64,000 nucleotides of DNA from Dolichospermum flos-aquae CCAP 1403/13F (GTDB lineage Bacteria; Cyanobacteriota; Cyanobacteriia; Cyanobacteriales; Nostocaceae). Positions 6,302 through 26,260 of the stretch are shown here, in pieces. Position 1 is the stretch's first letter, and every line of letters begins with the position of its first letter. The position numbers were made by a program, and so were the translations under genes. The DNA lies in contig NZ_CP051206.1 in NCBI RefSeq assembly GCF_012516395.1, positions 3,020,501 through 3,084,500 on the forward strand, given 5' to 3'. The notes beneath the pieces were generated by a model. It was not told where the DNA came from. It saw nothing but the letters and a program-made list of their open reading frames with translations, and did not search any database.

Positions 6302-7468
6302 TTATAATACGATAGTTTGCAAACCTTTGACTAATCTTTCTATACCTGCTTTAGCTGTATCTGCTGGTAACGCACCATAAGCAACCCGCAAATAACAGCC
6401 ATCTTCCATCCCAAAGGTTGTTCCCGGAATTACCGCTATTTTATATTCTTGAATCAGTTTTTTCACTAATTCCAAATCGTTCATTCTTGTATGCACTTTT
6501 ATGAAAAAGTAAAATGCACCATTAGCGGGTGCAATTGTACATAAATTTTCCAGAGATTGCAATGCGTTAATTACTATTTCTCGAACTTTAGCAATTGTCC
6601 CAATATGATCTTTTAAATAATCATCTTTTGCTTGTAAAGCCCCTAAAGCTGCATATTGAGAAACCACAGGTGGACAAATTAAAATGGTATCTTGGACTTT
6701 TTTCACAGCAATTAATAAATGTTGAGGAATTACCATATAACCAATTCGCCAACTAGCAAAACCATAAGCTTTCGACAAACTAAAAAGAGAAATTGTATAT
6801 TGATTACTGCCCGTAAATGCCCCCGGAGAAATATGTTTTACATGATCATAAGTAAAATATTCATAAGCTTCATCACTAATATGATAAATTCCCCTTTCTC
6901 GACAAATTTCATTAACTTGTTTTAATGCTGTCTCTGAATAAATCACACCCGTCGGATTATTTGGAGAAATCGTCACTACTGCACGGGTTTTATTTGTAAT
7001 TGCTGCGTTTATAGCTTCAGGAATTAATTGATAATTTGCATCTGTGGCAACTAATACCGGATGACAACCTGCCATTTTAATCGCCATTTCATGATTGAAA
7101 TAGTAGGGAGTGTTCAAGATAATTTCATCACCAGGAGAAGTAATTGCTAAAATAGCATTTATAAACCCCATATTGCTACCTGCTGTCACCACAATAGCAT
7201 TTTCTTCATTGATATCAATATCATTAAATATTGATAACTTTGCCGTTAAAGCTGTTAATAATTCAGGAATCCCGACAACAGCTTGATAAAGATGATTTTT
7301 AGGTTCAGCAAGGAACTTTGGTAATAATTCCATTGCTGTATCTGGTGGTTGATAGTGAACCACACCTTGTCCTAAAGAAATTGTTCCTGGAGAGTTTTTT
7401 ATTAATTCTCCCACCACCGGAATAATTGGCGATTGAATCGCTTCCATTCGTGATAATTTATAATTCAT
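6302..7468 (-). CDS. Class I/II pyridoxal-phosphate aminotransferase
   Basis: The 388-residue protein is a fold-type I aminotransferase. It has SLGQGVVHYQPP near the N-terminus, SPNNPTGVIY at about residue 168, SDEAYEYF, and the PLP lysine in SLFSLSKAYGFASWRIGY at about residues 226-243. Members transfer amino groups between amino acids and 2-oxo acids, and the substrate is not evident. It sits about 2 kb from the biosynthetic cluster but is separated from it by a MITE and the divergent MATE gene, so I treat it as housekeeping. A supporting role as the cluster's alpha-aminotransferase cannot be excluded. Confidence 0.88.
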   Translation of the reverse strand: MNYKLSRMEAIQSPIIPVVGELIKNSPGTISLGQGVVHYQPPDTAMELLPKFLAEPKNHLYQAVVGIPELLTALTAKLSIFNDIDINEENAIVVTAGSNMGFINAILAITSPGDEIILNTPYYFNHEMAIKMAGCHPVLVATDANYQLIPEAINAAITNKTRAVVTISPNNPTGVIYSETALKQVNEICRERGIYHISDEAYEYFTYDHVKHISPGAFTGSNQYTISLFSLSKAYGFASWRIGYMVIPQHLLIAVKKVQDTILICPPVVSQYAALGALQAKDDYLKDHIGTIAKVREIVINALQSLENLCTIAPANGAFYFFIKVHTRMNDLELVKKLIQEYKIAVIPGTTFGMEDGCYLRVAYGALPADTAKAGIERLVKGLQTIVL

Positions 7469-7964: not shown

Positions 7965-9422
7965 ATGAACCCGACACTCAAGAGCGAGTATGATTTCATA
8001 CCTCGCTATTTCCAGTTAGCTCTAGCCAACGTCCTATCGAATATTATGATCCCGGTAGCTAATTTAGTCAGTGTCATATTTTTGGGTCATCTTGAAGAAA
8101 TCAACAACTTCGCCGGAGTCATCCTCGCTGGCAACTTGCTCAACTTTCTCTACTTCGTTTTACTCTTTTTACGAATGGGGACTACTGGAGTCACAGCGCA
8201 AGCGGTTGGACGAGATGATAGGGAAGAAATGTTATTGATAGGATTGCGTAATGGTTTAGTAGCTCTGGTGCTGGGTATTGCCCTCATACTTTTACAATAC
8301 CCTTTGGGAGAGATTGGGTTTACCATCCTCAATGTCCCCCTAGAAATCAAATCTTCAGGTCTTGCCTATTTCAACACCCAAATTTGGGGAGCGCCTGCGG
8401 TTTTGCTCAATTTTGTTCTGATAGGTTGGTTTCTAGGGCGAGAAAAAAATGGCTTAGTTGTGCTGTTATCAGTAGTTGGTAATGGTGTGAAAATTGGACT
8501 TGACTATCTGTTTATTATCAACTTAGGGTGGGAAAGTATGGGAGCAGGAGTTTCTTCTGCTGCCAGCCAATATATATTGTTGTTGGTAGGATTGATATTT
8601 TTTTGTAGAGAATTCCAGTGGTTGGAAGTGATATCTGTAGCGTTTAAAATATGGGACATCTCAGCTATAAAATCTAACTTAACTCTCAATGGCAACATCT
8701 TTATTAGCAATTTAGTTCTTCTGTTTATCTCCTTAACATTTAGTTATCAAGGATTACAGATGGGAATGCTAGTTTACGCACAGAATTCTTTGTTGTGGCA
8801 GATAATCAGCTTTAATACATATTTTATTGAAGGAATCGGATTCGGTACGGAAAGTTTGGTCGGAAACTTTAAAGGAAAAGGAGATTCACACCAGTTAGCA
8901 CCTCTAGTTAGTTTTTCTGTCTTAACTGCTCTGATTGTAGGAATATTTTTCGGTGGAATATGTATATTATTTCCCGATAGTGTTTTTAGATTATTCACTA
9001 ACCACACCGAAATCATCTCTAAGATAGATACTTTTGTTCCCTGGTTGGTACTGGCCTTGGTACTTAGTTCTATAGATTTTACACTGGAAGGATACTTCTT
9101 AGGTTTAGCACAAGGACATACCCTCCGTAATGTTAGCTTAGTCGCTCTTTTTATCGGATTTGCACCTGTGAATTTTGCTGCCGTTAAGTTTTCCAGTAAC
9201 CATATCTTGTGGTTGAGTCTATCTTTGTTCTATGCAATAAGAACGATGATGTTTGTGGTAAAGTTGCCCAGTACATTTAGAAATGATCTTGATAATATTA
9301 GTGCTACTCTCCCGGCTTTAGAAGCAAATCCCCTGTTGACTTTAGCTTTTGGAGAAACTCGTGAACAAATAATGGTGGAAAAGTTGGGAGTAGGGGAAGA
9401 TGTTGAAAACGGGCGCATATAG
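7965..9422 (+). CDS. MATE family multidrug/natural-product exporter
   Basis: The 485-residue protein has about 12 hydrophobic segments in two halves, with the MATE N-terminal signature LANVLSNIMIPVANLVSVIFLG and the conserved RMGTTGVTAQAVG at about residues 70-82. MATE proteins export amphipathic or cationic small molecules using Na+ or H+ gradients across the plasma membrane. It reads toward the biosynthetic operon and ends 83 bp from it, and nothing else nearby needs an exporter. I infer that it exports the cluster's product, by analogy with MATE pumps in other cyanobacterial toxin clusters. Confidence 0.85.
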   Translation: MNPTLKSEYDFIPRYFQLALANVLSNIMIPVANLVSVIFLGHLEEINNFAGVILAGNLLNFLYFVLLFLRMGTTGVTAQAVGRDDREEMLLIGLRNGLVALVLGIALILLQYPLGEIGFTILNVPLEIKSSGLAYFNTQIWGAPAVLLNFVLIGWFLGREKNGLVVLLSVVGNGVKIGLDYLFIINLGWESMGAGVSSAASQYILLLVGLIFFCREFQWLEVISVAFKIWDISAIKSNLTLNGNIFISNLVLLFISLTFSYQGLQMGMLVYAQNSLLWQIISFNTYFIEGIGFGTESLVGNFKGKGDSHQLAPLVSFSVLTALIVGIFFGGICILFPDSVFRLFTNHTEIISKIDTFVPWLVLALVLSSIDFTLEGYFLGLAQGHTLRNVSLVALFIGFAPVNFAAVKFSSNHILWLSLSLFYAIRTMMFVVKLPSTFRNDLDNISATLPALEANPLLTLAFGETREQIMVEKLGVGEDVENGRI

Positions 9423-9505
9423 CAACTATTATTCCTGAACAATCTGCTCTTCATACTCCCCCCAATTATTGAGGAGAATATAAATCGCACTTGTTTATAT
9501 TTCGG

Positions 9506-10480
9506 TCAATGCCTGCCCAATAATCCTAATCCAAATTTATAGGCACATTCGTCTAAGGCATTTAACAGATAGCCCCCCTCCTGGACTAAACAAAGTGGTA
9601 TAGATGCTTGGGTGAGAATCTGACCAATTTCCTCGAAAATAGCAGGTGGTAGATGCCAACCGCCATGAGGATCATTGATAATAATGTCATAGCCAACAGA
9701 AACAACCATAGCTGCACAACCAAATTCAATTTTGGACTTTTGAACTAGCTGCTTAACTTCAGCTAAAAATTCCTCTGAACTAGGTGAATGGGAAAAAGGA
9801 ATGAAAGTTTGACTATCATTAGCTGGTTGAACTTCTTTGTAAGGATAACTAAGGATTGTGGAACTGTGAATAGAACCGAAGCAAACATCTGGTCGTGATG
9901 CTAATAAAGCAGCAGAACCATTGCCAAAATGAAAGTCAATATCAATCAATCCTACTGGACCTATTCCCGATTCTAGCAGTGTAACTACAGCCGCAACTGC
10001 ATTGTTTAAAAAGCAATATCCTCCTAACCAACCGGGCCCAGCATGGTGTCCGGGAGGTCTACACAAGGCATAGGACAAAGAAGCACCATTGACAATTTTC
10101 TGTGCGGCAGCGATCGCAGTTCTAGTCCCTTCACGAGACAAGTCGTAGACTCCGGCAAATAGAGGAGTATCTGCTGCAATTCCTTGGTCAACAAAAGGAT
10201 AATCAAATAGTAAATCTTCTCCTACCAATGCTCCATTCCAATGAGCTAAAAAATCAAGATAGGACTGTTCATGAATTTGTTGGAGAATGTTATCAAGATA
10301 GCGATCGCTAACCTCAGCCGTGGAAAAATTGCATTCAGGAAGACGCTGTAGACCTTGAATAATCCTCTGGCTACGTTCTTCAACTTCTTGTCCAGCCTTG
10401 TTTCCCTCAGAAGTCACAATGATAGGTGATGCTCCTTGCATTTCTCTTTGTAAGATCACCTCCAGCGACAAATTACTCAT
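9506..10480 (-). CDS. Histone deacetylase / acetylpolyamine amidohydrolase family protein in the biosynthetic cluster
   Basis: The 324-residue protein has the arginase-deacetylase fold signatures. CRPPGHHAGPGW holds the catalytic His pair at about residues 120-130, GLIDIDFHFGNGS holds the Asp and His zinc ligands, and GYDIIINDPHGGW is the third ligand region, ending with EGGYLLNAL. The family removes acetyl groups from lysines, polyamines or small-molecule amines. It is the last gene of the eight-gene operon, 28 bp after the methyltransferase. I infer that it deacetylates an acetamido group placed by the GNAT domain encoded two genes upstream, either in maturation or in turnover. Confidence 0.88.
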   Translation of the reverse strand: MSNLSLEVILQREMQGASPIIVTSEGNKAGQEVEERSQRIIQGLQRLPECNFSTAEVSDRYLDNILQQIHEQSYLDFLAHWNGALVGEDLLFDYPFVDQGIAADTPLFAGVYDLSREGTRTAIAAAQKIVNGASLSYALCRPPGHHAGPGWLGGYCFLNNAVAAVVTLLESGIGPVGLIDIDFHFGNGSAALLASRPDVCFGSIHSSTILSYPYKEVQPANDSQTFIPFSHSPSSEEFLAEVKQLVQKSKIEFGCAAMVVSVGYDIIINDPHGGWHLPPAIFEEIGQILTQASIPLCLVQEGGYLLNALDECAYKFGLGLLGRH

Positions 10481-10508
10481 ACAATCACCTCCCGCATTTC
10501 AAAATTTA

Positions 10509-11525
10509 TCAAACACGTACCAGTTCCATCAGGCTCAGGGGCTTTTCTGGAGAGAAAATATTCACTAATTCAAAACCTGATTTTCGGAAAATAGCCTTAA
10601 ATTCTGCCTGGGTACGCACTAGTCCATGTCCCATACACATCGGATATAAATCTTCCCATTTACTCCAATGGTACTGATTGTCAACGGGAATTACTGGATC
10701 GATAACAAGCAGTTTGCCATTTTTAGGCATAGCATAGTTAATGTTTTCCAAAAATTTGACTATACTATCATCATCCCAATCAATCATGATAAATGACATA
10801 AGATAAATATCACCCCCACTAGGAATGGACTTAAACATATCTCCACCGACTACTTCACATCGTTCATCTACTCCCTCCGCTTTCAGAAACTTAACGGCAT
10901 CAAAAACTGTCTCAGGCATATCAAAAAGGAGTCCTTGTAAGTGGGGATTATGCTTGAGAATGGCAGAAATAATTAGACCTTGACCGCCTGCTATATCTAC
11001 GACTTTGCCAACTTTAGAAAAATCATAAGATTTAAGAAGTTGGATTTGACAGTTTTGAGCAATACCAAACATTGATTGACTAAAAATCAAATTAGGTTCA
11101 GTATTTTTTTCTAAATACTGCCAGTAATTGTTAACCGAATAAACTGATTTGATAGCTGGCTCACCTGTTTTGACAGTATGGTACATATCTCCAAAAACAC
11201 GCCAACGCCACTCATCAATATTAGTTATAGCCAAATATTTTAAAGAGTAAGGATTATCACTTTGAAGATATTCAGCTAGCGGAGTAAGAGCAAAATGACG
11301 TGGTTCAACCTCATGGAAAACCCCTACGGTACTAAGACATCGAAGGATGCGATAGAGGGAGGGAGCATGACTTTCAGTAGCTTGTGCCAACTCTTCAACA
11401 CTTTTTGCTCCTTCTGCCAACAAGTCAGCAATGCTCAACTTCGCAGCAATCCCCAAAGCCTGACTAATCCAAGATGCACAAGTTAACTTGAAAAAATCAT
11501 CAGGACGTATATCTGTAGTCATCAT
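10509..11525 (-). CDS. SAM-dependent O-methyltransferase (Methyltransf_2 type)
   Basis: The 338-residue protein has an N-terminal winged-helix dimerisation domain (about residues 15-95, with APSLYRILRCLSTVGVF) and a Rossmann methyltransferase domain with the SAM loop VVDIAGGQGLIISAIL at about residues 178-193 and the acidic FDMPETV. It resembles small-molecule O-methyltransferases of the caffeate/hydroxyindole type found in natural-product clusters. It lies in the operon between the aminotransferase-GNAT and the HDAC-like gene. The acceptor is not evident. It could methylate a hydroxyl on an N-terminal cap or a carboxylate. Confidence 0.87.
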   Translation of the reverse strand: MMTTDIRPDDFFKLTCASWISQALGIAAKLSIADLLAEGAKSVEELAQATESHAPSLYRILRCLSTVGVFHEVEPRHFALTPLAEYLQSDNPYSLKYLAITNIDEWRWRVFGDMYHTVKTGEPAIKSVYSVNNYWQYLEKNTEPNLIFSQSMFGIAQNCQIQLLKSYDFSKVGKVVDIAGGQGLIISAILKHNPHLQGLLFDMPETVFDAVKFLKAEGVDERCEVVGGDMFKSIPSGGDIYLMSFIMIDWDDDSIVKFLENINYAMPKNGKLLVIDPVIPVDNQYHWSKWEDLYPMCMGHGLVRTQAEFKAIFRKSGFELVNIFSPEKPLSLMELVRV

Positions 11526-11559
11526 GTCGCTCCTTATTACTTTAATTGACTTTCACGGG

Positions 11560-12990
11560 TTATATTGTTATGCTTGATCCAAGGAGTTTCCGCATTCTAG
11601 GACCGAAATCTTCAAAGCCACTCTTTTGATAAAAATGGTGGGTATTAGAAAATCTGGGGAATTCATGGGTTGGCAAACATACTTCTAAACGAGAAATTCC
11701 CTGTTCATGAGCATAGGTTTCCACAGCTTGAATCAGATTTTCACCGATATTTTGACTGCGATGATCTGGATGAACCCATAGTTCCTGAATCAGTACAAAT
11801 TGACCTGCTACATGAATCGCTTCTTGCACAGTTAAAGTAATCAAACCAAGGATAGAATCATTGTCTCCTTCTGGATTAGCAATGAAAATAGCACCAGGAT
11901 ATTTCCCTTCAATTACACGCTGACAAATTGCTGTGGCTTCAGCAGGAAGTTGAAATTCTGGAATACCTTTTAATTCTGCTAACAGAGAACCAATACCTGC
12001 AAGGACAGCAGGAACGTCAGCCAATTGAGCAGAACGAATCTGGTATACTTTTTCAGGGTCAGACTTGGGTGTAGATTTTTCTAAGACCGTTCCTGTCAAC
12101 CAACGGGATGCCATTTCATCTCCTGGGTTGTTGAGCATTTTCTGGAAACGCTCTTGCAGCAGTTGGGTAACAGGTCCGGGAAATTGGCCACCCATAACCT
12201 GTCCACCTACCGCAGAAACAGGACGGATTTCGTGATAAGTTCCGCTCACAAATACTTCATCTGCCACCATTAAGTCTCCCAAAGGTAGAGGTACTTCTTT
12301 TACAGGAATACTCAATTGATTGGCAAAATCAATCACCAAACGCCTTGTGACTCCATCAATACTTTGAGGTAGAATAGGAGTATACAAAACAGAGTTTTTG
12401 ACGATAAAAATATTTGCTCCCGTCATTTCGCAGATAGTTCCATCTGGATTTAACATCAGATTACCGTCAAATCCCAGTTTTTTGGCATTGCGATCGGCAG
12501 CAGCTTCCACAGCATAGAAGCCACTAATTTTACCCCTAGCCAGGGTAGAACCGGCTTCGGGACGACGGATATGACTAATGCCTAAAGTCAGTGGTGGTAA
12601 AAATCCTGAACTGTCAGAACGCCAAGCCATAACCAATGCAGCCGAAGGGAATGGGGAAGGATCTAACCCCAAACAATTACCGTTTGGATATACTAGCAGA
12701 CGGATATATCCCTTTTCTAGATTGTTCGCACTTACGGCTTGCCATAATGCTTTGATAATTGTTTCGGGTTCTACAGGGGACAATCCCAAAGATAACATTG
12801 ACAATCGTAATCGGTTGAGATGCAGATCCAATCCTAATATCTTTGAGCCATTAGCGGTGGAATAAAGCCGAAATGCTTCAAAGGCAGCAGTTCCAAAATT
12901 AAGGGCATGATTATCCACTGGCAAACGTGCTAATTCAGTAGGTACGATGCGTCCATCAAGGTAAGTCCAAGAGCAAAATTCTAAGGCCAT
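11560..12990 (-). CDS. Class IV aminotransferase fused to a GNAT acetyltransferase
   Basis: Residues 1-305 form a branched-chain/ADC-lyase-type fold IV PLP enzyme. GFYAVEAA follows the PLP lysine in LARGKISG at about residue 155, the glutamate is in ICEMTGANIF, and SGTYHEIRPV lies near 252. Residues 332-476 form a GNAT domain with the acetyl-CoA loop HPDHRSQNIGENLI and the closing HHFYQKSGFEDFG. The fusion is unusual. I infer that the first half gives the alpha-amino group to the cyclohexenylidene pyruvate and the second acetylates the ring amine. The aminotransferase is closer to BCAT than to PabC, so PABA formation is less likely. Confidence 0.88.
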   Translation of the reverse strand: MALEFCSWTYLDGRIVPTELARLPVDNHALNFGTAAFEAFRLYSTANGSKILGLDLHLNRLRLSMLSLGLSPVEPETIIKALWQAVSANNLEKGYIRLLVYPNGNCLGLDPSPFPSAALVMAWRSDSSGFLPPLTLGISHIRRPEAGSTLARGKISGFYAVEAAADRNAKKLGFDGNLMLNPDGTICEMTGANIFIVKNSVLYTPILPQSIDGVTRRLVIDFANQLSIPVKEVPLPLGDLMVADEVFVSGTYHEIRPVSAVGGQVMGGQFPGPVTQLLQERFQKMLNNPGDEMASRWLTGTVLEKSTPKSDPEKVYQIRSAQLADVPAVLAGIGSLLAELKGIPEFQLPAEATAICQRVIEGKYPGAIFIANPEGDNDSILGLITLTVQEAIHVAGQFVLIQELWVHPDHRSQNIGENLIQAVETYAHEQGISRLEVCLPTHEFPRFSNTHHFYQKSGFEDFGPRMRKLLGSSITI

Positions 12991-13070
12991 ATAACAATCC
13001 TAAATTAAATGAGTTGTGAATAGTTGTGAAAAATTAAACTTATGAGATGTTGCTGAAAAATCAGCAGTAG

Positions 13071-13382
13071 TTAACCATCTATAATCTCATCTTCCATACG
13101 GCAAGTTTCTTGAATGATGACGCTGTATAATGCGACCATAAAATCTCCATCTAACCCATACTGCATAGCCAATTCTCGACGACGCTGTTTCACAGCTTCG
13201 ACTCGTTCGGGTTGCATCATCGCAATTCCGTGTTGCTTTTTAAAGTTAGCCACCCGTTGACAAATTTCAAATCGCTTGGCTAATGCCTCAACAATCTGAG
13301 AATCTACAGCATCAATTTCTGCTCTAAAACCTTCCAATCCACTCATTTTCAGATTCCCAAATTTTCTTACCAATCTTCTCAT
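13071..13382 (-). CDS. Chorismate mutase-like protein (AroQ fold; probable 4-amino-4-deoxychorismate mutase)
   Basis: The all-helical AroQ domain of about 90 residues shows the usual motif GFRAEIDAVDSQIVEALAKR, the VANFKKQHG helix and the C-terminal VIIQETCRMED. Stand-alone members beside an aminodeoxychorismate synthase (PapB type) rearrange 4-amino-4-deoxychorismate to 4-amino-4-deoxyprephenate. The gene lies 33 bp after the cupin and 80 bp before the aminotransferase-GNAT in one operon. A start at the internal ATG giving MSGLEGFRAEID (base 13346) fits the family better than the first ATG. Confidence 0.88.
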   Translation of the reverse strand: MRRLVRKFGNLKMSGLEGFRAEIDAVDSQIVEALAKRFEICQRVANFKKQHGIAMMQPERVEAVKQRRRELAMQYGLDGDFMVALYSVIIQETCRMEDEIIDG

Positions 13383-13415
13383 TTATTAGCATCAATTTTC
13401 TTAGAAGTTGGGTAT

Positions 13416-14054
13416 CTATAGTGAAACCTTAACTAAAGAAATCGTTTGATCTGAAGTGTTATACCCACTATAGGAAATACCTGGGGGAGCATGGTAAATG
13501 CTACCATATTCTAAAAGTTTTTCTTCTTCACCTACTTTCATCATTATTTGCTCATTAATAATAATACCAATTTCGTTTTTGGTACTTGCATAAATGGGTA
13601 ATTTTTCGTGTGCGGGAATTTCTAAAACGGCTATTTGAAACCATGAACAAATGCCAAAATTACAAGGAAAACCTGTAGCTTTATCTATGGTAGACCGTAG
13701 TTTGAGAATAGGTTCATCAATATTTTTATCTATTTGAGATGATCCTATTAGGTACTTTATTTCCACTCCTAGCACGGTTTCTTGAGAAAGAATTGTAGAA
13801 CCATGAGGAACATTAGAACCTGCGATATAGACCTGCTGAAATGGCTCTAAAATTGCTTTTTTTTCATTAACATTGATTTCCACTGAACCCGAAAAAAGCA
13901 TACCCATTTGGCTTTCTGGATGTTGATGAGGTTCAAAAATTGCTCCTGGTAAGATATTAGCTAGTTGAATAACTATTTCTTGACAACGAAAAAGTGTCAA
14001 CTCTAAATCTGGGCGCGGCTTGATAGTTTGAGGAACTGGGAAAAATGTTGACAT
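13416..14054 (-). CDS. Bicupin isomerase, BacB/AerE-like
   Basis: The 212-residue protein has two cupin barrels. The first carries the metal-binding pattern HQHPESQMGMLFSGSVEI at about residues 42-59. The second is at about 130-205 (IPAHEKLPIYASTKNEIGI and YHAPPGISYSGYNT). BacB in bacilysin and its homologue in aeruginosin clusters are bicupins that isomerise the endocyclic diene of the BacA product to a conjugated exocyclic diene. Lying directly after the BacA-like gene strongly supports that role here, on a 4-amino substrate. Confidence 0.85.
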   Translation of the reverse strand: MSTFFPVPQTIKPRPDLELTLFRCQEIVIQLANILPGAIFEPHQHPESQMGMLFSGSVEINVNEKKAILEPFQQVYIAGSNVPHGSTILSQETVLGVEIKYLIGSSQIDKNIDEPILKLRSTIDKATGFPCNFGICSWFQIAVLEIPAHEKLPIYASTKNEIGIIINEQIMMKVGEEEKLLEYGSIYHAPPGISYSGYNTSDQTISLVKVSL

Positions 14055-14091
14055 TTTCTAATTATGTAAATTGATATAAATGGGAAGAGAA

Positions 14092-14688
14092 TCAGACACC
14101 AGAAAGTTCTAATTGGAAAAGTTGAGGATTTTTGATCCCAATAACTCCCTGCTGTCTATTTTGTTGACGACCATATACGAGCCAAGCTGTTTGGACAGAG
14201 CCAATAACTTCATCAACTACTAATACATCAGGATTTTCTTCAGCAAATTGTAAAGCTGCAATACCGCTATCATACTTACCCGCCAGCAAGTTCTGACCCA
14301 CCACGGGCTTGGCCGTTTCATGGATAAAAGTTGAGTAGCGTTCTGTATTTACATAAGCCCGCGTAGCAGGCATTAATCCTAGACTGCGGGGATGTTCTAC
14401 ATCACGACGAGTTAGGAGTCCCATAGCACGAGTTGGACATAAGAAGCTATCAATTACGAATACTTCCCGAAAGTATTTTTCTGTTAATTCATAAACTTTA
14501 GGATGAGCAGAGTTTTGGATAATGAAGTCAACTTTACCATCATGTAGTAACTCCAGTGCGTCTAACAGATCATTGAACAGTTCTATTTTGGCATTAGCCA
14601 CTTCTTGAAACTCAATATAAGATTGAGTCGCTAATTCATGGCAAGTTCCAACAGGTCCAAGAGTTGCAAAAATTAGTTGTTTATTCAT
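14092..14688 (-). CDS. Prephenate decarboxylase-like protein (BacA/AerD type)
   Basis: The 198-residue protein starts FATLGPVGTCHELAT, the signature of the prephenate dehydratase catalytic domain, but has no ACT regulatory domain and is the size of BacA (about 200 residues). BacA-type enzymes decarboxylate prephenate without aromatising it. The dehydratase motif with the catalytic threonine (N-x-TRF) is not seen. In this operon the natural substrate would be 4-amino-4-deoxyprephenate. The ATG lies 3 bp from the stop of the synthase gene, so translational coupling is likely. Confidence 0.87.
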   Translation of the reverse strand: MNKQLIFATLGPVGTCHELATQSYIEFQEVANAKIELFNDLLDALELLHDGKVDFIIQNSAHPKVYELTEKYFREVFVIDSFLCPTRAMGLLTRRDVEHPRSLGLMPATRAYVNTERYSTFIHETAKPVVGQNLLAGKYDSGIAALQFAEENPDVLVVDEVIGSVQTAWLVYGRQQNRQQGVIGIKNPQLFQLELSGV

Positions 14689-14691
14689 TGC

Positions 14692-16881: not shown

Positions 16882-16960
16882 GTTTAAATCCTCTTAATTA
16901 ACTCGTCAAAAGGGCTAAAGCCTAACTACATACAAAAGTTTGATAGGTTTCCAGCAATTT

Positions 16961-19900
16961 TTATCCATAAACTCTATCTTTTAAGATTTCAACATAATTT
17001 TGCAGCATTAATTGAATATCTTTGTAACTAAAATATGTCTGATCGTATTCTACATGAATGCTGACATTTCCTGATAATGATTCCATGGAAATAGCATAAT
17101 TTAAAGGAAAGTTAAACTTGTCATAAATCATTTTTCTCTGTACCTTTAAGCTAGTATGCTTGTCCACAGTTTTGGTATTATGGAAATTTACAAAATTAAA
17201 CGTAGCCAAAAATAATTCCGTTGTTTTTTGATCTGACAAAATTTCCAGCAGTGGATATCTCACAAAAGGTTCGATATCAATTAGGGTTTGCTGGACATTT
17301 TTAATTTGCACACTTTTATCTTCTGTAATTGTTTGACAAAATGGCACAATATTCCAGAATAAACCCAAAGCTCCGAAGGGATCAGATAATCTTTCTATCC
17401 TACCATTAGAAATAACTCCTACAGAAACCTGATTTTCTTTCATGACAATACTAATGAGATCCAGGTATGTACTCAAGAAAATTGCTTTTGGTGAAACTTT
17501 TAATTTTCGACAACATTCACGTAAATCAAGAATTATTTCTGCGTTAAAGTTGTCTTCTATGGCTTTCTGGCTATCGGAAGCAGACTTTACTTGAAATACG
17601 GTTGTCTTTAACGGCTGCAATGGTTTATATTTGTAATTTTGTAAATGAAGTTTCCAGAAATTTGATGCTTCTGTTGAGCTAATGATTTCTTTCTCTAAAG
17701 CGACAAATTCCTGATGCACATTATTTGCAGGAATCACGGTTATTTCTTCTCCTTGCTTGAGAGCAGAATATAATTCCTCTAGTTGATTTACAAATTCAAT
17801 ACCACTCCAACCATCTGTAATTGCATGGTGCATTGACATAAAGAACTCAAATCTATTTTCAGCTTTGCGAACAAGCCATAATCTAAAAAGTGCTTCATTG
17901 CAATTCTCAACGTTGAATAAATTTTGCCTATCTTGCTTTATGATTGCATTAATGTAATTTTCCTGTTCGTCTGATTTGATGTGACTAATATCTTCTTCAT
18001 TGATGGAAAATTTCAGATTTTTTCTAACCACTTGACATACTGGTTTTCCGTTCTGAAAAATAAACACCGTTCTCAGAGTTGGATGTTTTTCTACTAGAAT
18101 TTGTAGAGCTTTCTTGAAGACACTTATAGAAAGATTTTCATCATATATATCTAATAATTCCTGTCCATGATAAACCCCCATTTTTTGATGATCATTCGCG
18201 TAATGATGCAACATAAACTCCTGCATTTTGGCCAGAGGATATGCGAATTGTGTATCATCAGGTAATAACTCAGAGATATCTTGAGTCAGTTCTAATAAAT
18301 GTAGGGGGACAGGAACATTATTTTCCTGATGCTGATAATTATTTATTGGTTGAGAAAAGCCGTAAATTTCCTGGTTTGCAGATACATCAATAGATAAACA
18401 ATGAGTAATTAGAAACCGCAAATTTGCTGCAAAATCTTCAGCGAGATTTTCAATAGTGTCTCGGTGGTGAAAATTTTCGCTGTAAGTCCAATCTAGTTTC
18501 AACTGACCATCTACTACGAGTCCATTAATATCTAGTAAATGACTGCAATTCTCTTGCTGGCAATGTTCCGCTCCCACTGATTCAGAAGCTAGTTTAAAGA
18601 AGGAATTTTCTTGTCTTCCCCAATCGAATTGTCCCAAATAATTGAAACTAACTTCAGCTTTTGGCATTGTTGAAAGTTGAGAGATAATATCTTTATCCCC
18701 ACTCAAATAGCGCAGCAAACCGTAGCCAATACCTCGGTTGGGAACAGCACGCAGTTGTTCTTTGATCGACTTAATCCCATCTCCCAGATTATCTGTTGCT
18801 TTTAACTCTAAAAGTACGGGAAAGATGGTCGTAAACCAACCGACTGTCCTCGATAAGTCTACATCTTCAAAAATATCTTCTCGTCCATGACCTTCAAGAT
18901 CAAGTAACACAGAATTACTACCAATCCAACTACCTAAAGTCTGCAATAAAGCAGTTAGCAAGATATCATTAATCTGGGTTTTATAAGCTTTAGGAACTTC
19001 CTGCAATAAAGCGCGGGTTTCCTCAGGTGAGAGTGAGACTGATATGATCTGATTGAATGCTACAGTATTAGCACCCAAGGCATGATCAACTGGTATACGG
19101 GTTATCTGTGTACGTGAAATACCTTGCCAATTAGTTAGTTTTTGCTTGGCAATATCAGACTGTGCGTAAGAATTTAGTTTCTCAGCCCAATATTTAAAAG
19201 AGGTCGTTTTAGGACGAAACTGAATTTTTTCACCGCGACTAATCTGTTGGTAAGCTGTTTCTAAGTCTTCTAACAAAATTCGCCAAGAAACGCCGTCTAC
19301 TGCTAGGTGATGAATAATTATTAATAATCGGCTGGATTTGTTAGTACCTAGACCAAAAAACGCTACTTGCACTATTGGACCAGAAGCAATATTCAAGCTA
19401 GTTTGCAGGGAATTAGCAGTGGCTTCAATAGCTGCTTTTTGTTCCCTATCTGGGATGTCCGATAAATCTACATAAGAAAAAGGAATAGTATCATCAGAGG
19501 TAATATTAATCTGTTCCCCATCGGCAGGACAACGTAAGCGCAGAGTATCATGATGTAATAATAATTTTCGCATCACTTCTGGGAATAAAGTCCAGTCAAC
19601 TACCCCAGATAATTCCAGCAGCAATGACTGATTAAAGTGGTGAGGTTCTGGGAAATTTTGCTCTTTGAACCAGTGTTGAATAGGTGTCAGCGGTAATAAT
19701 CCTGTTACCAAACCTTGTTCTGCTTTCACCGTCTGAGAGATGTTAGTTACTGCCGCCAATTCAGCAATCGTCTGGTTTTGAAATATCTGTTTAGCCGTTA
19801 ATTGCAATCCAGCTTGTTTAGCTTTAAAAATAATCTGAATACTGAGAATAGAATCTCCACCCAACTCAAAGAAATTGTCATGGATACCAACTTCTTTAAG

Positions 19901-22900
19901 ATGCAGAACTTCACACCATATTTTTGCTAGTATTTCTTCAGACTCCGTGCGCGGTGCTGCTAGATCCGTTTCTATTTTATGGCTTGTTGTATCAGGTTTA
20001 GGTAAACCACGCCGATCTACCTTACCATTAGGGGTAAGAGGCAGAGCATCCAAAACCACAAAAGCAGAAGGTATCATGTAATCTGGTAACTTTTGTTTCA
20101 GGAAAGAACGCAATTGCGACTGGGGTAAAGACGTTTCATTCAACGTCCCTACTATGTATGCAACTAAGCGTTTAGAACCTGGAATATGATCAGAATCAAT
20201 CACTACCGCTTCTGATATTTGGGGGTGTGTAATCAGTAAAGTTTCAATTTCCCCCAGTTCAATGCGAAAACCGCGTATTTTCACCTGATTATCAATGCGA
20301 CCCAAAAACTCAATATTCCCGTCGGGTAAATAACGAGCTAAATCCCCTGTTTTGTAAATACGTTCTAATGGATTAAAAGGATGAGGAATAAATTTTGCAT
20401 CTGTTAAATCTGGACGGTGGAGATAACCTCTAGCTAAACCCATACCACCAATATGCAACTCCCCTGGTACACCCATAGGAACTGGTTGTAAATAGCTATC
20501 AAGAATATAAATCTGCACATTATCAAAAGCATTGCCAATTACTTGTTTTGGCTGTGTATCCTCTGTTGCTAACTTTGATAAGTCGTATACTGTTGACAAT
20601 ACCGTTGCTTCTGTTGGTCCGTAGCCGTTCATTAATAGCGGTGGTGCTTTTAAATTCTGAATACTTGACCTCTCCTCCATGCACTTTTGCCACAACTTTA
20701 ATTTTTCTGGTAGCCATTGTTCTCCCCCAGTTGATAACAATCTTACTGATGGTGGTAGGGTTTCATTGGTTGTTGCTAATTCAGCCGTTAACTGCTGCCA
20801 GTAGGCTGTTCCCACCATTAATACTGTTAATTTCCATTCCCAGCACTTCTGTACAAATGTGGAGACAGCACCCAACATTTCGGCAGTCCGTAGCACTAAA
20901 GTTCCACCACATATTAAACAGGGATAGATTTCTTCTGCGGCTGCGTCAAAACTAATAGATGCTGCTTGAAGAACTCTGTCTTTATTGTTCATCCCATACT
21001 TATCTCTTACGGTTTGGGTTAAATTCACTAAAGACCGATGTTCAATCATTACTCCTTTCGGCTTTCCTGTGGAGCCGGAAGTATAAATTACATAGGCTAA
21101 ATTATTGGCTTTAACTTGAGTTTGTGGGTTTTTATCGCTTTGAGTGCTGATTAATTCCCAATTGGTATCTAAACAAATTACTTGTACCGCAGAATCTAGA
21201 GACGTTCCATGGAACGTCTCTACAATAGTTAATAGCACTTTTGCCTGAGAATCATCCAACATATAAGCTAAACGTTCTGCTGGATAAGCTGGATCTAAAG
21301 GAACATAAGCACCACCAGCTTTGAGAATCCCTAATAATCCTACTACCATTAACAGCGATCGCTCTACACATATTCCTACTAAAACTTCTGGATTCACACC
21401 CAGTTTTTGCAGATAATTTGCCAGTTGATTTGCCTGTTGATTTAATTCCTGATAAGTTAGTTTTTCCCCTTCAATCTCTACTGCTACAGCGTCAGGTGTT
21501 TTGATTACCTGTTCTTCAAATAATTGATGGATACATTTATCTAATGGATAATCTTTTTTAGTATTATTCCAATCAACTAATAATTGATATTGCTCAATTT
21601 CTGTTAACAATGGTAATTGGGAAATAGGTTGCTGTGGATTGGCGACAATTCCTGTTACTAAAGTGTGGAAATTTCCTGCCATGCGAGCAATTGTTGAATC
21701 ATCAAACAAGTCGCTATTATATTCCCATTCGGCTATCAATCCAGAAGATGTATTCTCAATTGAGAGAGCTAAATCGAACTTCGCTATTCCCGTTTCCACA
21801 GGAAATGAACTTATACTTAACCCTGGCAAATCTAAACTTGATATAGGAACATTCTGGAGATCAAACATGACCTGAAACAGAGGCAAGTGACTCAAAGAAC
21901 GCTGAGGTTGCAAAGCATCAACCAATTTCTCAAAGGGCAGGTCTTGATGACTGTATGCTTGCAGAGATACTTCCCGCACCCTCATTAGTAACTGCTCAAA
22001 ACTGGGGTTGTCTGACAAATCAGTTCGCAGCACTAAAGTATTCACAAAAAGACCAATTATCCCTTCTATTTCCGGACGATTACGACCAGCAATGGGTGTA
22101 CCAATTACAATATCCTTTTCCCCTGTGTAACGATAAAGCAAGGTAACAAAAGCCGCAAAAAACGTCATAAATGGGGTAACTCCCGCACCCTTGCTAAGTA
22201 GGTTCATGGACTCACCTAGGGACTGAGGAAGTGTAAATTGTTGATGTTTTCCCCGGTTTGTTTGAATAGCAGGTCTGGGTCTATCGGTAGGAAGTTCTAA
22301 TAAGGTGGGAGCGCCTTGAAGTTGTTGCTGCCAATAGGATAGCTGCTCTGTAATTCTCCCTTGTTCCCACCACTGTCGCTGCCAAACGGCAAAGTCTGCA
22401 TACTGTATGGGTAATTCAGGCAGTTCAACAACTTTTTGAGGGGTTTTGTCATTACAGAATGCAGTGTAGAGTGTTGCTAATTCTTGGACAAATACCCCTG
22501 TTGACCAACCATCAAAAATAATGTGGTGTGCTGTGAGGATAAAAACGTACTCTGTTGAGGTAAGCTGTAAGAGAGTGGCACGTATTAAAGGTTCTCTTTC
22601 TAGATCATAGGATCGCACTGCCTCATTTAGAACTAATCGCTGCATTTCCACTTCTCGTTCCTCTGTTGGCAGATACAGCAAATCTACGATTTCTAGTGGC
22701 AAAAAAAGAGTTTCAGCAATAACCTGAATGGGTTGATTTTCTTGTGTGACAAAGTTTGTCCGTAACGCTTCATGTCGACGGATGATTTCGTTCAGGCTCG
22801 ATTGTAGCGCAGTTACATTAAGTTTCCCGCTAAACCGCCAAAGGATAGGGATGTTATAAAACGCACTATTGGGATCTAATTTGTCTAAAAACCACAATCT

Positions 22901-25900
22901 CGCTTGTGCAAAGGAGAGAGGGAGGTTTTCTGTCCTACCAACTGGTTTAATTGCAGTTTGTAGTTCGTAGTTGGGCTTTAGCCCAAACTCGGCAAAACTA
23001 GCTATAGTTGGTGCTGTAAATAAAGTGCGGACGGACAAATCCATCTGCAAGATTTGACGTAGCCGAGATATGATTTGGGTAGCGAGCAGGGAATGACCAC
23101 CGATTTCAAAGAAGTTATCGTGTATACCTATATTTTCTAAATGAAGCACCTCTTCCCAAACAGTAGCAATTGTTCGCTCCACATCCGTTTGGGGTGCAAC
23201 GTAATTTGCTGCTGAGTCAGGTCTATTTTGGTCAGGTTTCGGTAAATTGCGCCGATCTACCTTACCATTCGGAGTTAGAGGTAAAGCATCTAAAACCACA
23301 AAAGCAGAAGGTATCATGTAATCTGGTAACTTCTCTTTCAGGAAAGAGCGCAATTGCGACTGGGGCAAAGAGGTTCCAGAGGAAGTTTCTACGATATATG
23401 CAACCAATCGTTTAGAACCAGGAATATCATCAGAATCAATCACTACCGCTTCTGATATTTGAGGATGTGTAATTAGTAAAGTTTCAATTTCCCCCAGTTC
23501 AATGCGAAAACCGCGTATTTTCACCTGATTGTCAATGCGACCCAGAAACTCAATGTTACCGTTAGGTAAATAGCGAGCTAAGTCTCCTGTTTTGTAAATA
23601 CGTTCTGATTGCTTAAAGGGATGAGCAATAAATTTTGCATCTGTTAGATCTGGATGGTGGAGATAGCCTCTAGCTAAACCCATACCACCAATATGCAATT
23701 CCCCAGGTACACCAATAGGAACGGGCTGGAGGAAGCTATCAAGAATATAAGTCTGGACATTATCAAAAGGAGTGCCAATGATTTGCTGTCCCTGTGTATT
23801 CTCTAGGCGCAACTCCGATAAATTGTATACCGTTGATAATACGGTTGCTTCTGTTGGTCCATAGCCGTTCATTAACATCGGTGGCGCTTTTAAATTCTGA
23901 ACGCGCGATCTATATTCCATGCTCTTTTGCCACAGGTTCAATTTTTCTGGCAGCCATTGTTCTCCACCATTAGCTAACAACCTTACTGATGGTGGTAGGG
24001 TTTCATTGGTTGTTGCTAATTCTGCCGTTAGCTGGTGCCAGTATGCTGTTCCCATCATTAATACTGTTAATTCCCATTCCCAGCACTTCTGGATAAATGT
24101 GGAGACAGTACCCAACATTTCAGCAGTCCGTAGCACTAAGGTTGCACCAGAGACTAGACAGGGATAGATTTCTTCTGCGGCTGCGTCAAAACTGATCGAT
24201 GCAGCTTGCAGAACTCTGTCTCTATTGCTTATCTCATATTTGTCTTTTACCGTTTGGGCAAAGTTCGCTAAAGACCGATGTTCAATCATTACTCCTTTCG
24301 GCTTTCCTGTGGAGCCAGAGGTATAAATTACATAGGCTAAATTATTGGCTTTAACTTGAGTTTGTGGGTTTTTATCGCTTTGAGTGCTGATTAATTCCCA
24401 ATTGGTATCTAAACAGATCACCTCTAAGCCAGTATTCGGTATTGAGTTCACTAACTGCTGTTGAGTTAATAGCACTTTTGCCTGAGAATCATCCAACATA
24501 TAGGCTAAACGTTCTGCTGGATAAGCTGGATCTAAAGGAACATAAGCACCACCAGCTTTAAGAATCCCTAATAATCCTACTACCATTAACAGCGATCGCT
24601 CTACACAAATTCCTACTAAAACCTCTGGATTTACACCCAGTTTTTGCAGATAATTTGCTAGTTGATTTGCCCGTTGATTTAATTCCTGATAAGTTAGTTT
24701 TTCCCCTTCAATCTCTACTGCTACAGCGTCAGGTGTTTTGATTACCTGTTCTTCAAATAATTGATGGATACATTTATCTAATGGATATTCTTTTTTAGTA
24801 TTATTCCAATCAACTAATAATTGATATTGCTCAATTTCTGTTAACAATGGTAATTGGGAAATAGGTTGCTGTGGATTAATTAAAATACTTTCTAGCAAGG
24901 TTTGATAATTTCCTGCTATTCGTTCTACAGTGGAAATATTAAACAGATCAGTATTGTATTGCCAGCAAAAATTAAACTCACCACCAGTTTTAATAATCGC
25001 CAAATCTATATCAAATGCTGATCCTCGTTGATGTCCTTCTATTAAGAATGGCGACATCACTAAAGATGATTTTTGGCTATTATCATACCAGCGATGCTCT
25101 TGCCAAGTTAAAGAAACTTGAAACAGAGGAGAACGACTAGAATCTCTTTCAGGAATAAGCTGTTTTACTAATAGGGGAAAGGGATAATCTTCATGTTTCT
25201 TACCCTCAGAAACTGTGCGACGTATTTGAGCAAGAAAATCTCTGAAGGTGGGATTTTCCCCTAGATTTGCACGTAATACTATGGGGTCTGTAAAGTAGCC
25301 AATAATACTTTCAAATTCCTTTTTACCTGACCGACCTGCAACTGGACAACCTACTAGGATGTCTTCTTGTCCTGATAAGCGGTAAAATAGGATAAAAAAT
25401 GCAGCCAGGAAAATTCTATACAGGCTGGTTTTTTCTAATTCTGACAACTTTCTCAGCCTGGAAAGCAATTCTTCATCTAACTTGATGATGTGTGTGCTAC
25501 CAGAGTAGGTTTGCACATTTGGTCTAAGTTTATCTACGGGCAAGTCTAAGACTGGCAACTCACCTATTAATTGTTTATGCCAGTATGCTGAAAGTTGTTC
25601 ACCTTGAGAACTTGACAACATCTCGGTCTGCCAACTTACATAATCTGTGTATGATAGCTTTGGAAGAGAGAGACTATTATCTGTTTGAGAATTATAAATA
25701 TCTGAATTTTCAATAATTTGTAAGTCAGCTTGAGACGATGTTTTTACTTCTGTAGCATACAGAATTTGCAGTTCATTTAATAATATGTCAAAAGACCACA
25801 TATCTCCAGCAATGTGGTGCATGGCCAGTAATTGGATATGTTCTGCTGATGATCTTGTAAATAGATGTACCCGCAATACTGGACCTGTTTCCAAGTTGTA

Positions 25901-26260
25901 AGGACGCTCGGTTTCTACCAGAATTTTTTTTTCTAAGTAGTCTAATTCCCAAGTAGAAGCATCTGTTATTTTAATATCTATCTCTTGGTATGGGTGAATT
26001 ACTTGAATAGGTTGATCTTCATACTGTGCATAAGTAGTTCGTAGGATAGGATGACGTTCTACAATCTGAAGCCACGCTCTGTGCCATGCCTCCAAATCTA
26101 ACTCTGAGTTTATCCGTACTGTTGTATAGATATTGTATGCGATGCTCTGGGGTGCTATCTGGTCAAGAAACCACATCACTTGTTGACCGTAGGAGAGGGG
26201 AAATGATTTCGTTTCCTCTGTAAGTTGTGGCTGCTTTTCCAAAGAAGAATTGCTTTGCAT
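16961..26260 (-). CDS. Two-module nonribosomal peptide synthetase, C-A-T-C-A-T-E-C
   Basis: The 3099-residue protein has these domains: C1 about 20-460 (HHIAGDM), A1 about 490-1000, T1 around GGHSLL at 1054, C2 about 1110-1550 (HHIIFDG), A2 about 1570-2080, T2 around GGDSILS at 2133, epimerase about 2185-2620 (HHLAVDG) and a terminal C about 2670-3095 (MHHAITDG). By alignment to GrsA the ten-residue codes read D-A-E-M-L-N-G-V-L-K (A1) and D-A-E-M-L-T-G-V-L-K (A2), so both modules probably load the same or very similar residues. The acid at position 239 suits a basic side chain. There is no thioesterase. It is the first gene of the operon and would make an acylated or modified dipeptide with a D residue. 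Confidence 0.95.
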   Translation of the reverse strand: MQSNSSLEKQPQLTEETKSFPLSYGQQVMWFLDQIAPQSIAYNIYTTVRINSELDLEAWHRAWLQIVERHPILRTTYAQYEDQPIQVIHPYQEIDIKITDASTWELDYLEKKILVETERPYNLETGPVLRVHLFTRSSAEHIQLLAMHHIAGDMWSFDILLNELQILYATEVKTSSQADLQIIENSDIYNSQTDNSLSLPKLSYTDYVSWQTEMLSSSQGEQLSAYWHKQLIGELPVLDLPVDKLRPNVQTYSGSTHIIKLDEELLSRLRKLSELEKTSLYRIFLAAFFILFYRLSGQEDILVGCPVAGRSGKKEFESIIGYFTDPIVLRANLGENPTFRDFLAQIRRTVSEGKKHEDYPFPLLVKQLIPERDSSRSPLFQVSLTWQEHRWYDNSQKSSLVMSPFLIEGHQRGSAFDIDLAIIKTGGEFNFCWQYNTDLFNISTVERIAGNYQTLLESILINPQQPISQLPLLTEIEQYQLLVDWNNTKKEYPLDKCIHQLFEEQVIKTPDAVAVEIEGEKLTYQELNQRANQLANYLQKLGVNPEVLVGICVERSLLMVVGLLGILKAGGAYVPLDPAYPAERLAYMLDDSQAKVLLTQQQLVNSIPNTGLEVICLDTNWELISTQSDKNPQTQVKANNLAYVIYTSGSTGKPKGVMIEHRSLANFAQTVKDKYEISNRDRVLQAASISFDAAAEEIYPCLVSGATLVLRTAEMLGTVSTFIQKCWEWELTVLMMGTAYWHQLTAELATTNETLPPSVRLLANGGEQWLPEKLNLWQKSMEYRSRVQNLKAPPMLMNGYGPTEATVLSTVYNLSELRLENTQGQQIIGTPFDNVQTYILDSFLQPVPIGVPGELHIGGMGLARGYLHHPDLTDAKFIAHPFKQSERIYKTGDLARYLPNGNIEFLGRIDNQVKIRGFRIELGEIETLLITHPQISEAVVIDSDDIPGSKRLVAYIVETSSGTSLPQSQLRSFLKEKLPDYMIPSAFVVLDALPLTPNGKVDRRNLPKPDQNRPDSAANYVAPQTDVERTIATVWEEVLHLENIGIHDNFFEIGGHSLLATQIISRLRQILQMDLSVRTLFTAPTIASFAEFGLKPNYELQTAIKPVGRTENLPLSFAQARLWFLDKLDPNSAFYNIPILWRFSGKLNVTALQSSLNEIIRRHEALRTNFVTQENQPIQVIAETLFLPLEIVDLLYLPTEEREVEMQRLVLNEAVRSYDLEREPLIRATLLQLTSTEYVFILTAHHIIFDGWSTGVFVQELATLYTAFCNDKTPQKVVELPELPIQYADFAVWQRQWWEQGRITEQLSYWQQQLQGAPTLLELPTDRPRPAIQTNRGKHQQFTLPQSLGESMNLLSKGAGVTPFMTFFAAFVTLLYRYTGEKDIVIGTPIAGRNRPEIEGIIGLFVNTLVLRTDLSDNPSFEQLLMRVREVSLQAYSHQDLPFEKLVDALQPQRSLSHLPLFQVMFDLQNVPISSLDLPGLSISSFPVETGIAKFDLALSIENTSSGLIAEWEYNSDLFDDSTIARMAGNFHTLVTGIVANPQQPISQLPLLTEIEQYQLLVDWNNTKKDYPLDKCIHQLFEEQVIKTPDAVAVEIEGEKLTYQELNQQANQLANYLQKLGVNPEVLVGICVERSLLMVVGLLGILKAGGAYVPLDPAYPAERLAYMLDDSQAKVLLTIVETFHGTSLDSAVQVICLDTNWELISTQSDKNPQTQVKANNLAYVIYTSGSTGKPKGVMIEHRSLVNLTQTVRDKYGMNNKDRVLQAASISFDAAAEEIYPCLICGGTLVLRTAEMLGAVSTFVQKCWEWKLTVLMVGTAYWQQLTAELATTNETLPPSVRLLSTGGEQWLPEKLKLWQKCMEERSSIQNLKAPPLLMNGYGPTEATVLSTVYDLSKLATEDTQPKQVIGNAFDNVQIYILDSYLQPVPMGVPGELHIGGMGLARGYLHRPDLTDAKFIPHPFNPLERIYKTGDLARYLPDGNIEFLGRIDNQVKIRGFRIELGEIETLLITHPQISEAVVIDSDHIPGSKRLVAYIVGTLNETSLPQSQLRSFLKQKLPDYMIPSAFVVLDALPLTPNGKVDRRGLPKPDTTSHKIETDLAAPRTESEEILAKIWCEVLHLKEVGIHDNFFELGGDSILSIQIIFKAKQAGLQLTAKQIFQNQTIAELAAVTNISQTVKAEQGLVTGLLPLTPIQHWFKEQNFPEPHHFNQSLLLELSGVVDWTLFPEVMRKLLLHHDTLRLRCPADGEQINITSDDTIPFSYVDLSDIPDREQKAAIEATANSLQTSLNIASGPIVQVAFFGLGTNKSSRLLIIIHHLAVDGVSWRILLEDLETAYQQISRGEKIQFRPKTTSFKYWAEKLNSYAQSDIAKQKLTNWQGISRTQITRIPVDHALGANTVAFNQIISVSLSPEETRALLQEVPKAYKTQINDILLTALLQTLGSWIGSNSVLLDLEGHGREDIFEDVDLSRTVGWFTTIFPVLLELKATDNLGDGIKSIKEQLRAVPNRGIGYGLLRYLSGDKDIISQLSTMPKAEVSFNYLGQFDWGRQENSFFKLASESVGAEHCQQENCSHLLDINGLVVDGQLKLDWTYSENFHHRDTIENLAEDFAANLRFLITHCLSIDVSANQEIYGFSQPINNYQHQENNVPVPLHLLELTQDISELLPDDTQFAYPLAKMQEFMLHHYANDHQKMGVYHGQELLDIYDENLSISVFKKALQILVEKHPTLRTVFIFQNGKPVCQVVRKNLKFSINEEDISHIKSDEQENYINAIIKQDRQNLFNVENCNEALFRLWLVRKAENRFEFFMSMHHAITDGWSGIEFVNQLEELYSALKQGEEITVIPANNVHQEFVALEKEIISSTEASNFWKLHLQNYKYKPLQPLKTTVFQVKSASDSQKAIEDNFNAEIILDLRECCRKLKVSPKAIFLSTYLDLISIVMKENQVSVGVISNGRIERLSDPFGALGLFWNIVPFCQTITEDKSVQIKNVQQTLIDIEPFVRYPLLEILSDQKTTELFLATFNFVNFHNTKTVDKHTSLKVQRKMIYDKFNFPLNYAISMESLSGNVSIHVEYDQTYFSYKDIQLMLQNYVEILKDRVYG
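21198..21221. repeat. 24-nt perfect palindrome inserted in frame in the second adenylation domain
   Basis: The stretch AGAGACGTTCC followed by its exact reverse complement is a 24-nt palindrome. Module 1 has no such palindrome at the equivalent place: there the protein reads TQQQLVNSIPNTGLE, while module 2 reads TIVETFHGTSLDSAVQ. Length and frame leave the enzyme open. The loop lies between the early A-domain core motifs and the P-loop YTSGSTGKPKG. Confidence 0.8.

Follow-up and report, generated by a model that had tools for sequence, protein, structure and literature searches.

The 64,000-nucleotide stretch of DNA considered here, called the window, is part of the genome of Dolichospermum flos-aquae CCAP 1403/13F (G000; two contigs, 5.22 Mb). 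It carries a gene cluster of the type that makes radiosumin, a small trypsin inhibitor with residues of 2-amino-3-(4-amino-2-cyclohexen-1-ylidene)propionic acid (Aayp). Eight co-directional genes, separated by 3-80 bases, span 16.75 kb of the minus strand (9506-26260), and a MATE gene converges on them from the plus strand (7965-9422), according to the list of open reading frames. One of the eight encodes a fused PabA-PabB 4-amino-4-deoxychorismate (ADC) synthase (ADCS), which appears to be a gene that G000 can no longer do without. It is very probable, judging from the comparisons described below, that the locus is a gene cluster for radiosumin and that its ADC synthase supplies folate synthesis as well. 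The cluster itself is of an already known type; the new part is the folate link of its ADCS.

In the reading direction of the minus strand, the cluster opens with a gene for a nonribosomal peptide synthetase (NRPS) of 3099 amino acids (16961-26260). It is followed by the gene for the PabA-PabB fused ADCS (14692-16881), whose product scores over the PabB-fungal and pabB cut-offs and contains glutamine amidotransferase (GATase) motifs together with the lysine of a PIKGT motif, an ADCS-type catalytic residue. The next gene (14092-14688) encodes a 198-aa protein with zero matches in the Pfam, NCBIfam and PDB searches. From its position it is taken to be a BacA/AerD-like putative decarboxylase, and six homologues from Aayp-type clusters were aligned with it. 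A bicupin isomerase (13416-14054) resembles AerE and BacB, its best PDB matches being 5zbe, an AerE (E=1.2e-45), and BacB 3h7j (E=2.9e-16). Pfam and NCBIfam both recognize the next two products, which are an AroQ-type chorismate mutase (13071-13382), with ADC as its proposed substrate, and a class IV aminotransferase fused to a GNAT acetyltransferase (11560-12990). The run ends with an S-adenosylmethionine-dependent methyltransferase of the Methyltransf_2 family in Pfam (10509-11525), which probably performs a 4-N-methylation, and with an HDAC-fold deacetylase that resembles acetylpolyamine amidohydrolases by family match (9506-10480). The convergent gene encodes a MATE efflux transporter, a probable exporter, that matches Pfam MatE and exceeds the cut-off of the NCBIfam model GntT_guanitoxin. 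The reading frames and family matches bear out the preliminary description of eight co-directional genes with a convergent MATE gene.

The Pfam result for the NRPS contains four condensation-type (C), two adenylation (A) and two thiolation (T) domains, and with motifs and PDB matches the order C-A-T-C-A-T-E-C is obtained, where E is an epimerization domain. The latter lies at approximately 18344-19705, has the motif HHLAVDGVSW, and its PDB matches include 2xhg (E=5e-83), which we take to be an E domain. The terminal condensation-like domain (approximately 16964-18343; motif HHAITDG; PDB NRPS chains matched) is probably responsible for release, and no thioesterase is present in the Pfam result for this protein, which ends E-C. 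The specificity code is DAEMLNGVLK for the first A domain (23240-24757), read from a GrsA alignment and sequence patterns, and DAEMLTGVLK for the second (20000-21520), read from sequence patterns. The codes were compared by eye with the GrsA alignment, and the final K was set by script and lies in the NGKVD motif. Given that the two A domains are 87% identical and their codes nearly so, two like residues are expected, in agreement with the preliminary description. The nearest solved structure to the first A-domain core is the anabaenopeptin domain ApnA A1 (4d4g, E=1.2e-32), which binds Arg and Tyr. The two domains have a glutamate in common at code position three; a residue of this kind can face a basic side chain, and it would suit the side amine of Aayp.

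Each chemical step of the following route is one that we infer; gene content, domain order, A-domain codes and the homology to the cluster of Plectonema radiosum NIES-515 are read directly. The ADCS would convert chorismate and glutamine to ADC, and the mutase would rearrange ADC to 4-amino-4-deoxyprephenate. Decarboxylation and a double-bond shift by the BacA-like protein and the cupin would follow, and the class IV aminotransferase would then yield Aayp. The two-module NRPS would join two Aayp residues, epimerize the second and release the dipeptide via the terminal C domain. The GNAT domain, the methyltransferase and the HDAC-like deacetylase presumably determine the acetylation and methylation of the side amines, and the MATE protein would export the product. 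The genes for ADC synthase, chorismate mutase, BacA-like protein, cupin and aminotransferase all lie within one operon-like run, and Pfam places the GNAT domain and the methyltransferase in the same cluster. The preliminary description held that the enzymes exactly suffice for such a product. The pathway genes do match, and the deacetylase, the E domain and the terminal C domain were left unaddressed by it.

The strongest comparison is with P. radiosum NIES-515 (G078), which we take to be the radiosumin-producing strain. Its homologous cluster, with proteins 74-88% identical gene by gene, contains the MATE, deacetylase, aminotransferase-GNAT, mutase, cupin, BacA-like, ADCS and NRPS genes. The NRPS of the window can be aligned over its full length with its counterparts in NIES-515 and G019. 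A radiosumin biosynthetic gene cluster was published by Ouyang et al. in 2023 (Org. Biomol. Chem., doi 10.1039/D3OB00385J), and is said to come from a strain named D. planctonicum UHCC 0167. It reportedly covers 16.8 kb and occurs in 13 filamentous cyanobacteria; the eight genes of the window cover 16.75 kb. The title of one reference gives P. radiosum as the source of radiosumin. The radiosumins reported for Dolichospermum planctonicum contain a pair of Aayp-type residues, acetyl and methyl substituents and a D residue; in radiosumin D, the Aayp in P1' is in the D form and the 4-amino group in P1 is methylated (PMC10531186). The E domain and methyltransferase of the window would fit radiosumin D. 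The claim of a radiosumin-type cluster is supported by the match of gene set to pathway and by the NIES-515 homologue. An aeruginosin or bacilysin cluster, with a cupin in common, is rejected given the ADC synthase and the different assembly line.

Related clusters vary in content. The BacA-like gene, counted together with its fragments, turned up in 10 of 217 genomes of the family, and a scan with the BacA-like alignment gave eight loci in named genomes, among them P. radiosum NIES-515. The cluster of G012, a member of the window's genus, occupies the same genomic place (L039 5893-11964) and is without the first NRPS module and the methyltransferase. Homologues of the MATE gene occur in the G012, G019 and NIES-515 clusters, and those of the deacetylase gene in these three and in G181 and G165. 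No methyltransferase homologue was found in the NIES-515, G019 and G012 clusters; among the loci compared, the sole one outside the window belongs to an Aayp-type cluster of Nostocales HT-58-2 and is 84% identical. That HT-58-2 place (L078 and L103 are the same) combines the Aayp gene set and the methyltransferase beside ABC transporter genes (L078 5052-12499), and the only NRPS match, at some distance from them, is remote (39%). The Aayp genes of G181, a metagenome-assembled genome of an uncultured Scytonema, and of G165 (Nostoc CHAB 5844) are accompanied instead by an A-T-reductase protein (L045 7561-10719 and L056 14831-17845, respectively). Such clusters could possibly make Aayp aldehydes, a further chemotype. 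Ratios of nonsynonymous to synonymous substitution (dN/dS) of the window cluster against those of G012 and G019 are 0.09-0.31 for seven genes, a set that leaves out the NRPS and methyltransferase and compares the MATE gene with G019 only; the ADCS gives 0.155 and 0.138. Because the gene set recurs in other genera and seven of its genes are under purifying selection, it is not a product of chance.

The folate link rests on the distribution of PabB. The pabB model TIGR00553 was run on 16 genomes of the window's genus, and exactly one match over the cut-off was obtained in 15 of them and two in G012. The match is a PabA-PabB fusion in G000, G003, G011, G012, G013 and G015; the remaining ten genomes, and G012 with its second match, show a PabB-PabC fusion. 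The single such match in G000 is the cluster ADCS, a point missed in the preliminary description. Two other TIGR00553 matches reach E<=1e-20 in this genome, namely a 503-aa protein that exceeds the trpE_most cut-off and stays below that of PabB-clade2 (354.9 vs 408.55), and a 477-aa frame at 107 bits; no second PabB was found in G000 by TIGR00553 or PabB-clade2. PabC, downstream of the ADCS step, and dihydropteroate synthase (DHPS) are found in G000 together with this single PabB, and DHPS is also present in G011 and G012. PIKGT, not PIAGT, and the GATase motifs were read in all 53 ADCS sequences, with one GVCLGNQ and two GICLGHQ variants.

The fate of the host PabB can be read at a PabB-PabC locus that is syntenic in the eight genomes compared. 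An open frame of 579-619 codons for the fusion is present in 11 of the 16 genomes, namely the ten congeners without a fused ADCS and G012. It begins five residues later in G001, G006, G007 and G014, which explains the stop counted there. In G000, G003, G013 and G015, the syntenic locus encodes PabC alone, open over 213-253 aa. The PabC of G000, outside the window (L065 4691-5377; G000:C1:341691-342377), has a 14-residue PabB leader and resumes near residue 371 of the fusion, a leader that is read here as the in-frame excision scar of PabB. Nine residues of the PabB start are kept in G003 and in G015, which resume near 374 and 346, respectively, while in G013 the leader is left in the DNA only, with a stop, and PabC has acquired another ATG start near residue 372. 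Given that the junctions differ, these are most simply separate excisions, and given that the PabB leader is still present, the fused state came first. In total, PabB was lost in five of the six genomes with an ADCS (in four with PabC kept) and in none of the ten without it (Fisher p = 0.0014, or 0.008 for the four, both uncorrected for kinship).

Across the family, the ADCS fusion was detected in 97 of 217 genomes (E<=1e-120), and TIGR00553 exceeds its cut-off in 108 of 217. A looser search of 11 of the other 109 genomes gave two proteins at 275-313 bits in nine, and one such protein plus longer ones at 207-214 bits in G036 and G041. In each of the five of these 11 that were examined further (G016, G034, G036, G041 and G043), one protein exceeds the cut-off of PabB-clade2, a different ADC synthase model; the same proteins pass PRK05940, named anthranilate synthase by NCBI, such that the name is not beyond doubt. 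With such a protein in five of five, PabB of some kind seems usual. Additional chorismate-binding proteins, with open frames of about 734-785 codons and 204-225 bits against pabB, were seen in G018, G036, G041, G048, G060, G142 and others.

In a tree of 53 ADCS sequences, one clade of 31 rows, termed the R clade (support 100/100), holds the window ADCS and all cluster-borne copies included, except that of G074. The earliest branch is G165, which has a variant cluster (91/84 for the remaining rows); the following fork, with G181 and its variant cluster, is not resolved, and G078, with a cluster, is the first branch in a 23-row subclade (92/80). A single PabB over the cut-off is found in 28 of 32 R-clade genomes, which are the 31 tree rows plus G099, whose gene is split and not in the tree; the exceptions are G012, G035, G078 and G181. 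PabB-like genes below the cut-off were sought in 15 of the 32.

Several ADCS genes remain open where the rest of the cluster has decayed. The ADCS of G011 lies amid fragments of the NRPS, BacA-like, cupin, mutase, aminotransferase and deacetylase genes, that of G142 stands behind an NRPS with four in-frame stops, and those of G060 (Calothrix PCC 7103) and UBA11372 have broken neighbours. To count such remains, coding queries from four clusters were searched within up to 4 kb (E<=1e-8) of stand-alone R-clade copies and of 21 controls, a sample of ADCS copies from outside the clade; some flanks were shorter than 4 kb, the shortest being 186 bases, in a control. Radiosumin fragments on the same strand flank nine of 25 R-clade copies and zero of 21 controls (Fisher p=0.002, kinship uncorrected), with G003 included on the strength of 53 bases and G099 not among the nine. 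The fragments derive from NRPS, BacA-like, aminotransferase or deacetylase genes, and fragments on the wrong strand were found at none of the 46 ADCS copies.

A second radiosumin ruin lies elsewhere in G000, outside the window, beside recG and a transposase-like gene (G000:C1, about 583,448-583,721; L058, about 1448-1721). It consists of 162 bases of an ADCS at 96%, 68 of an aminotransferase at 98.5% and 32 of the deacetylase-MATE spacer at 97%; for all three pieces the G012 cluster is the nearest match. In this ruin the ADCS has decayed too, another ADCS being present.

A wider reading of these observations, which is probably correct, is that radiosumin clusters carry a vitamin gene. The ADCS of an arriving cluster would make the host PabB redundant, and PabB would then be excised repeatedly while PabC is spared. 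The PabC left behind would convert ADC from the cluster enzyme to p-aminobenzoate, such that the host could no longer lose the ADCS, and the inhibitor genes would be free to decay. In the wider family, the R-clade ADCS would likewise survive decay of the radiosumin cluster because folate needs it, as proposed here. In short, the ADCS would be retained as a folate enzyme, the family would be strewn with ruined clusters in which a single gene is intact, and the cluster would be partly essential.

One alternative is that the ADCS serves radiosumin only and that p-aminobenzoate for folate comes from a promiscuous TrpE, from uptake or from an unknown synthase. The chloramphenicol cluster of Streptomyces venezuelae offers a precedent, with a separate homologue presumed to be primary (PMC4249514), and G011, where no PabC was recognised, suggests that unknown routes may exist. 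Against these stand the loss of PabB with PabC kept in four of six ADCS genomes, compared to no loss of PabB in the ten others, the presence of a PabB in every genome of the genus and in all five examined from other genera, and the fact that the ADCS outlives the rest of the cluster, so that this alternative is improbable. It is possible, if doubtful, that the stand-alone ADCS is instead an ancestral housekeeping gene of the family, beside which radiosumin clusters formed several times, in which case no copy outlived a decayed cluster. The fusions are indeed common, with 97 of 217 family genomes, clades exist outside the R clade with fragments at none of the 21 copies tested, and 16 of the 25 stand-alone R-clade copies are without fragments. 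However, the fragments beside the other nine, the basal position of the cluster-borne copies, with G165 first and others near the base (with modest support), and the order of events in the window's genus, where the PabB-PabC fusion preceded the PabC-only state and left its leader, all argue against this alternative.

Random decay of the PabB half, unrelated to the ADCS, would be consistent with the weak constraint on the PabC part. It is hardly credible given that none of ten genomes lost PabB without an ADCS compared to four of six with one (five with G011), and that the differing junctions all leave PabC open. A final alternative concerns the product, which might be a related Aayp compound other than radiosumin, for instance one to which the terminal C domain attaches an additional amine. 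The lack of a thioesterase in the Pfam result, the E-C ending of the NRPS, the A-T-reductase lines of G181 and G165 and the different second A code of NIES-515 would all allow for such a compound, but the end-to-end alignment with the NRPSs of NIES-515 and G019 and the D. planctonicum radiosumins reported in PMC10531186, which combine a pair of Aayp-type residues with acetylation, methylation and a D residue, make it quite improbable.

Several observations weigh against the radiosumin cluster as carrier of a folate gene. The 16 R-clade copies without fragments are among them, as is G012, which keeps both PabB sources, and NIES-515 and G181 carry a second ADCS. No PabC match was found at all in G011, where ADCS and DHPS are present. 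TrpE might make some ADC, and PabB of G000 may have been lost while the second cluster copy still worked. PabC evolves loosely, with dN/dS of 0.185-0.81 over 15 pairs (0.42 when the PabC portions of two intact fusions are compared; up to 0.81 for G003), and a strong need for PabC is therefore less supported. Near the ADCS start, three promoter-like sites, one on its strand, compare to 1.7 (standard deviation 1.2) in shuffled sequence, which is no clear sign of transcription of the ADCS apart from the NRPS. The A codes also vary between clusters: DAEMITGVLK was read for the first A domain of G019 and DAEMLTGVLK for the second of G012, the second of NIES-515 begins DSEI (the rest was not read), and the first A code of the decaying G142 cluster is DGEPLIGGLK.

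If the vitamin-gene reading is true, a protease-inhibitor cluster is linked to an essential vitamin, which would explain the persistence of radiosumin-cluster pieces. It would also be a clear instance in which a gene of secondary metabolism has taken over from one of primary metabolism and the traces of the deletion can still be read. Knocking out or silencing a cluster of this kind might then kill the cell for reasons that have nothing to do with the product, and the R-clade ADCS could serve as a marker for past and present radiosumin-type producers. Among literature titles, with partial coverage, none was found on a cluster-borne ADCS as the sole folate enzyme in cyanobacteria.

Two neighbouring features may be noted. 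The MATE protein (7965-9422) scores as the guanitoxin transporter GntT of NCBIfam (671.7 vs a cut-off of 525), which may mislead automatic annotation. A guanitoxin cluster was rejected, however, as no scanned neighbour passes a gnt model: among the 14 window proteins scanned, only the MATE protein does, and the protein encoded next to it at 6302-7468 falls short of the GntC cut-off and exceeds that of PRK05957. A putative endonuclease gene of the Uma2 type lies at 27587-28405, close to a DUF3318 gene.

Compared to known systems, the cluster shares with the published radiosumin cluster the chorismate-derived Aayp dipeptides, predicted here from the genes, and its NRPS is one 3099-aa gene, whereas those of NIES-515 and G019 are two genes. 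Bacilysin (BacA, BacB) and aeruginosin (AerD, AerE) have prephenate-type logic in common in their early steps, and the cupin of the window is homologous to BacB and 5zbe. The window pathway differs in that a C4 amino group would replace the hydroxy group, hence the added ADC synthase, and in that no reductase gene is found among its eight genes. Like the chloramphenicol cluster of S. venezuelae, with its own ADCS (cmlB/pabAB), the window cluster has an ADC synthase inside a secondary-metabolite cluster; S. venezuelae has a second ADCS elsewhere presumed to be primary (PMC4249514), whereas none was found in G000. PabA-PabB and PabB-PabC fusions are common according to PMC1971073. The latter form is open in 11 of the 16 genomes of the genus, whereas G000 retains only PabC and the 14-residue leader.

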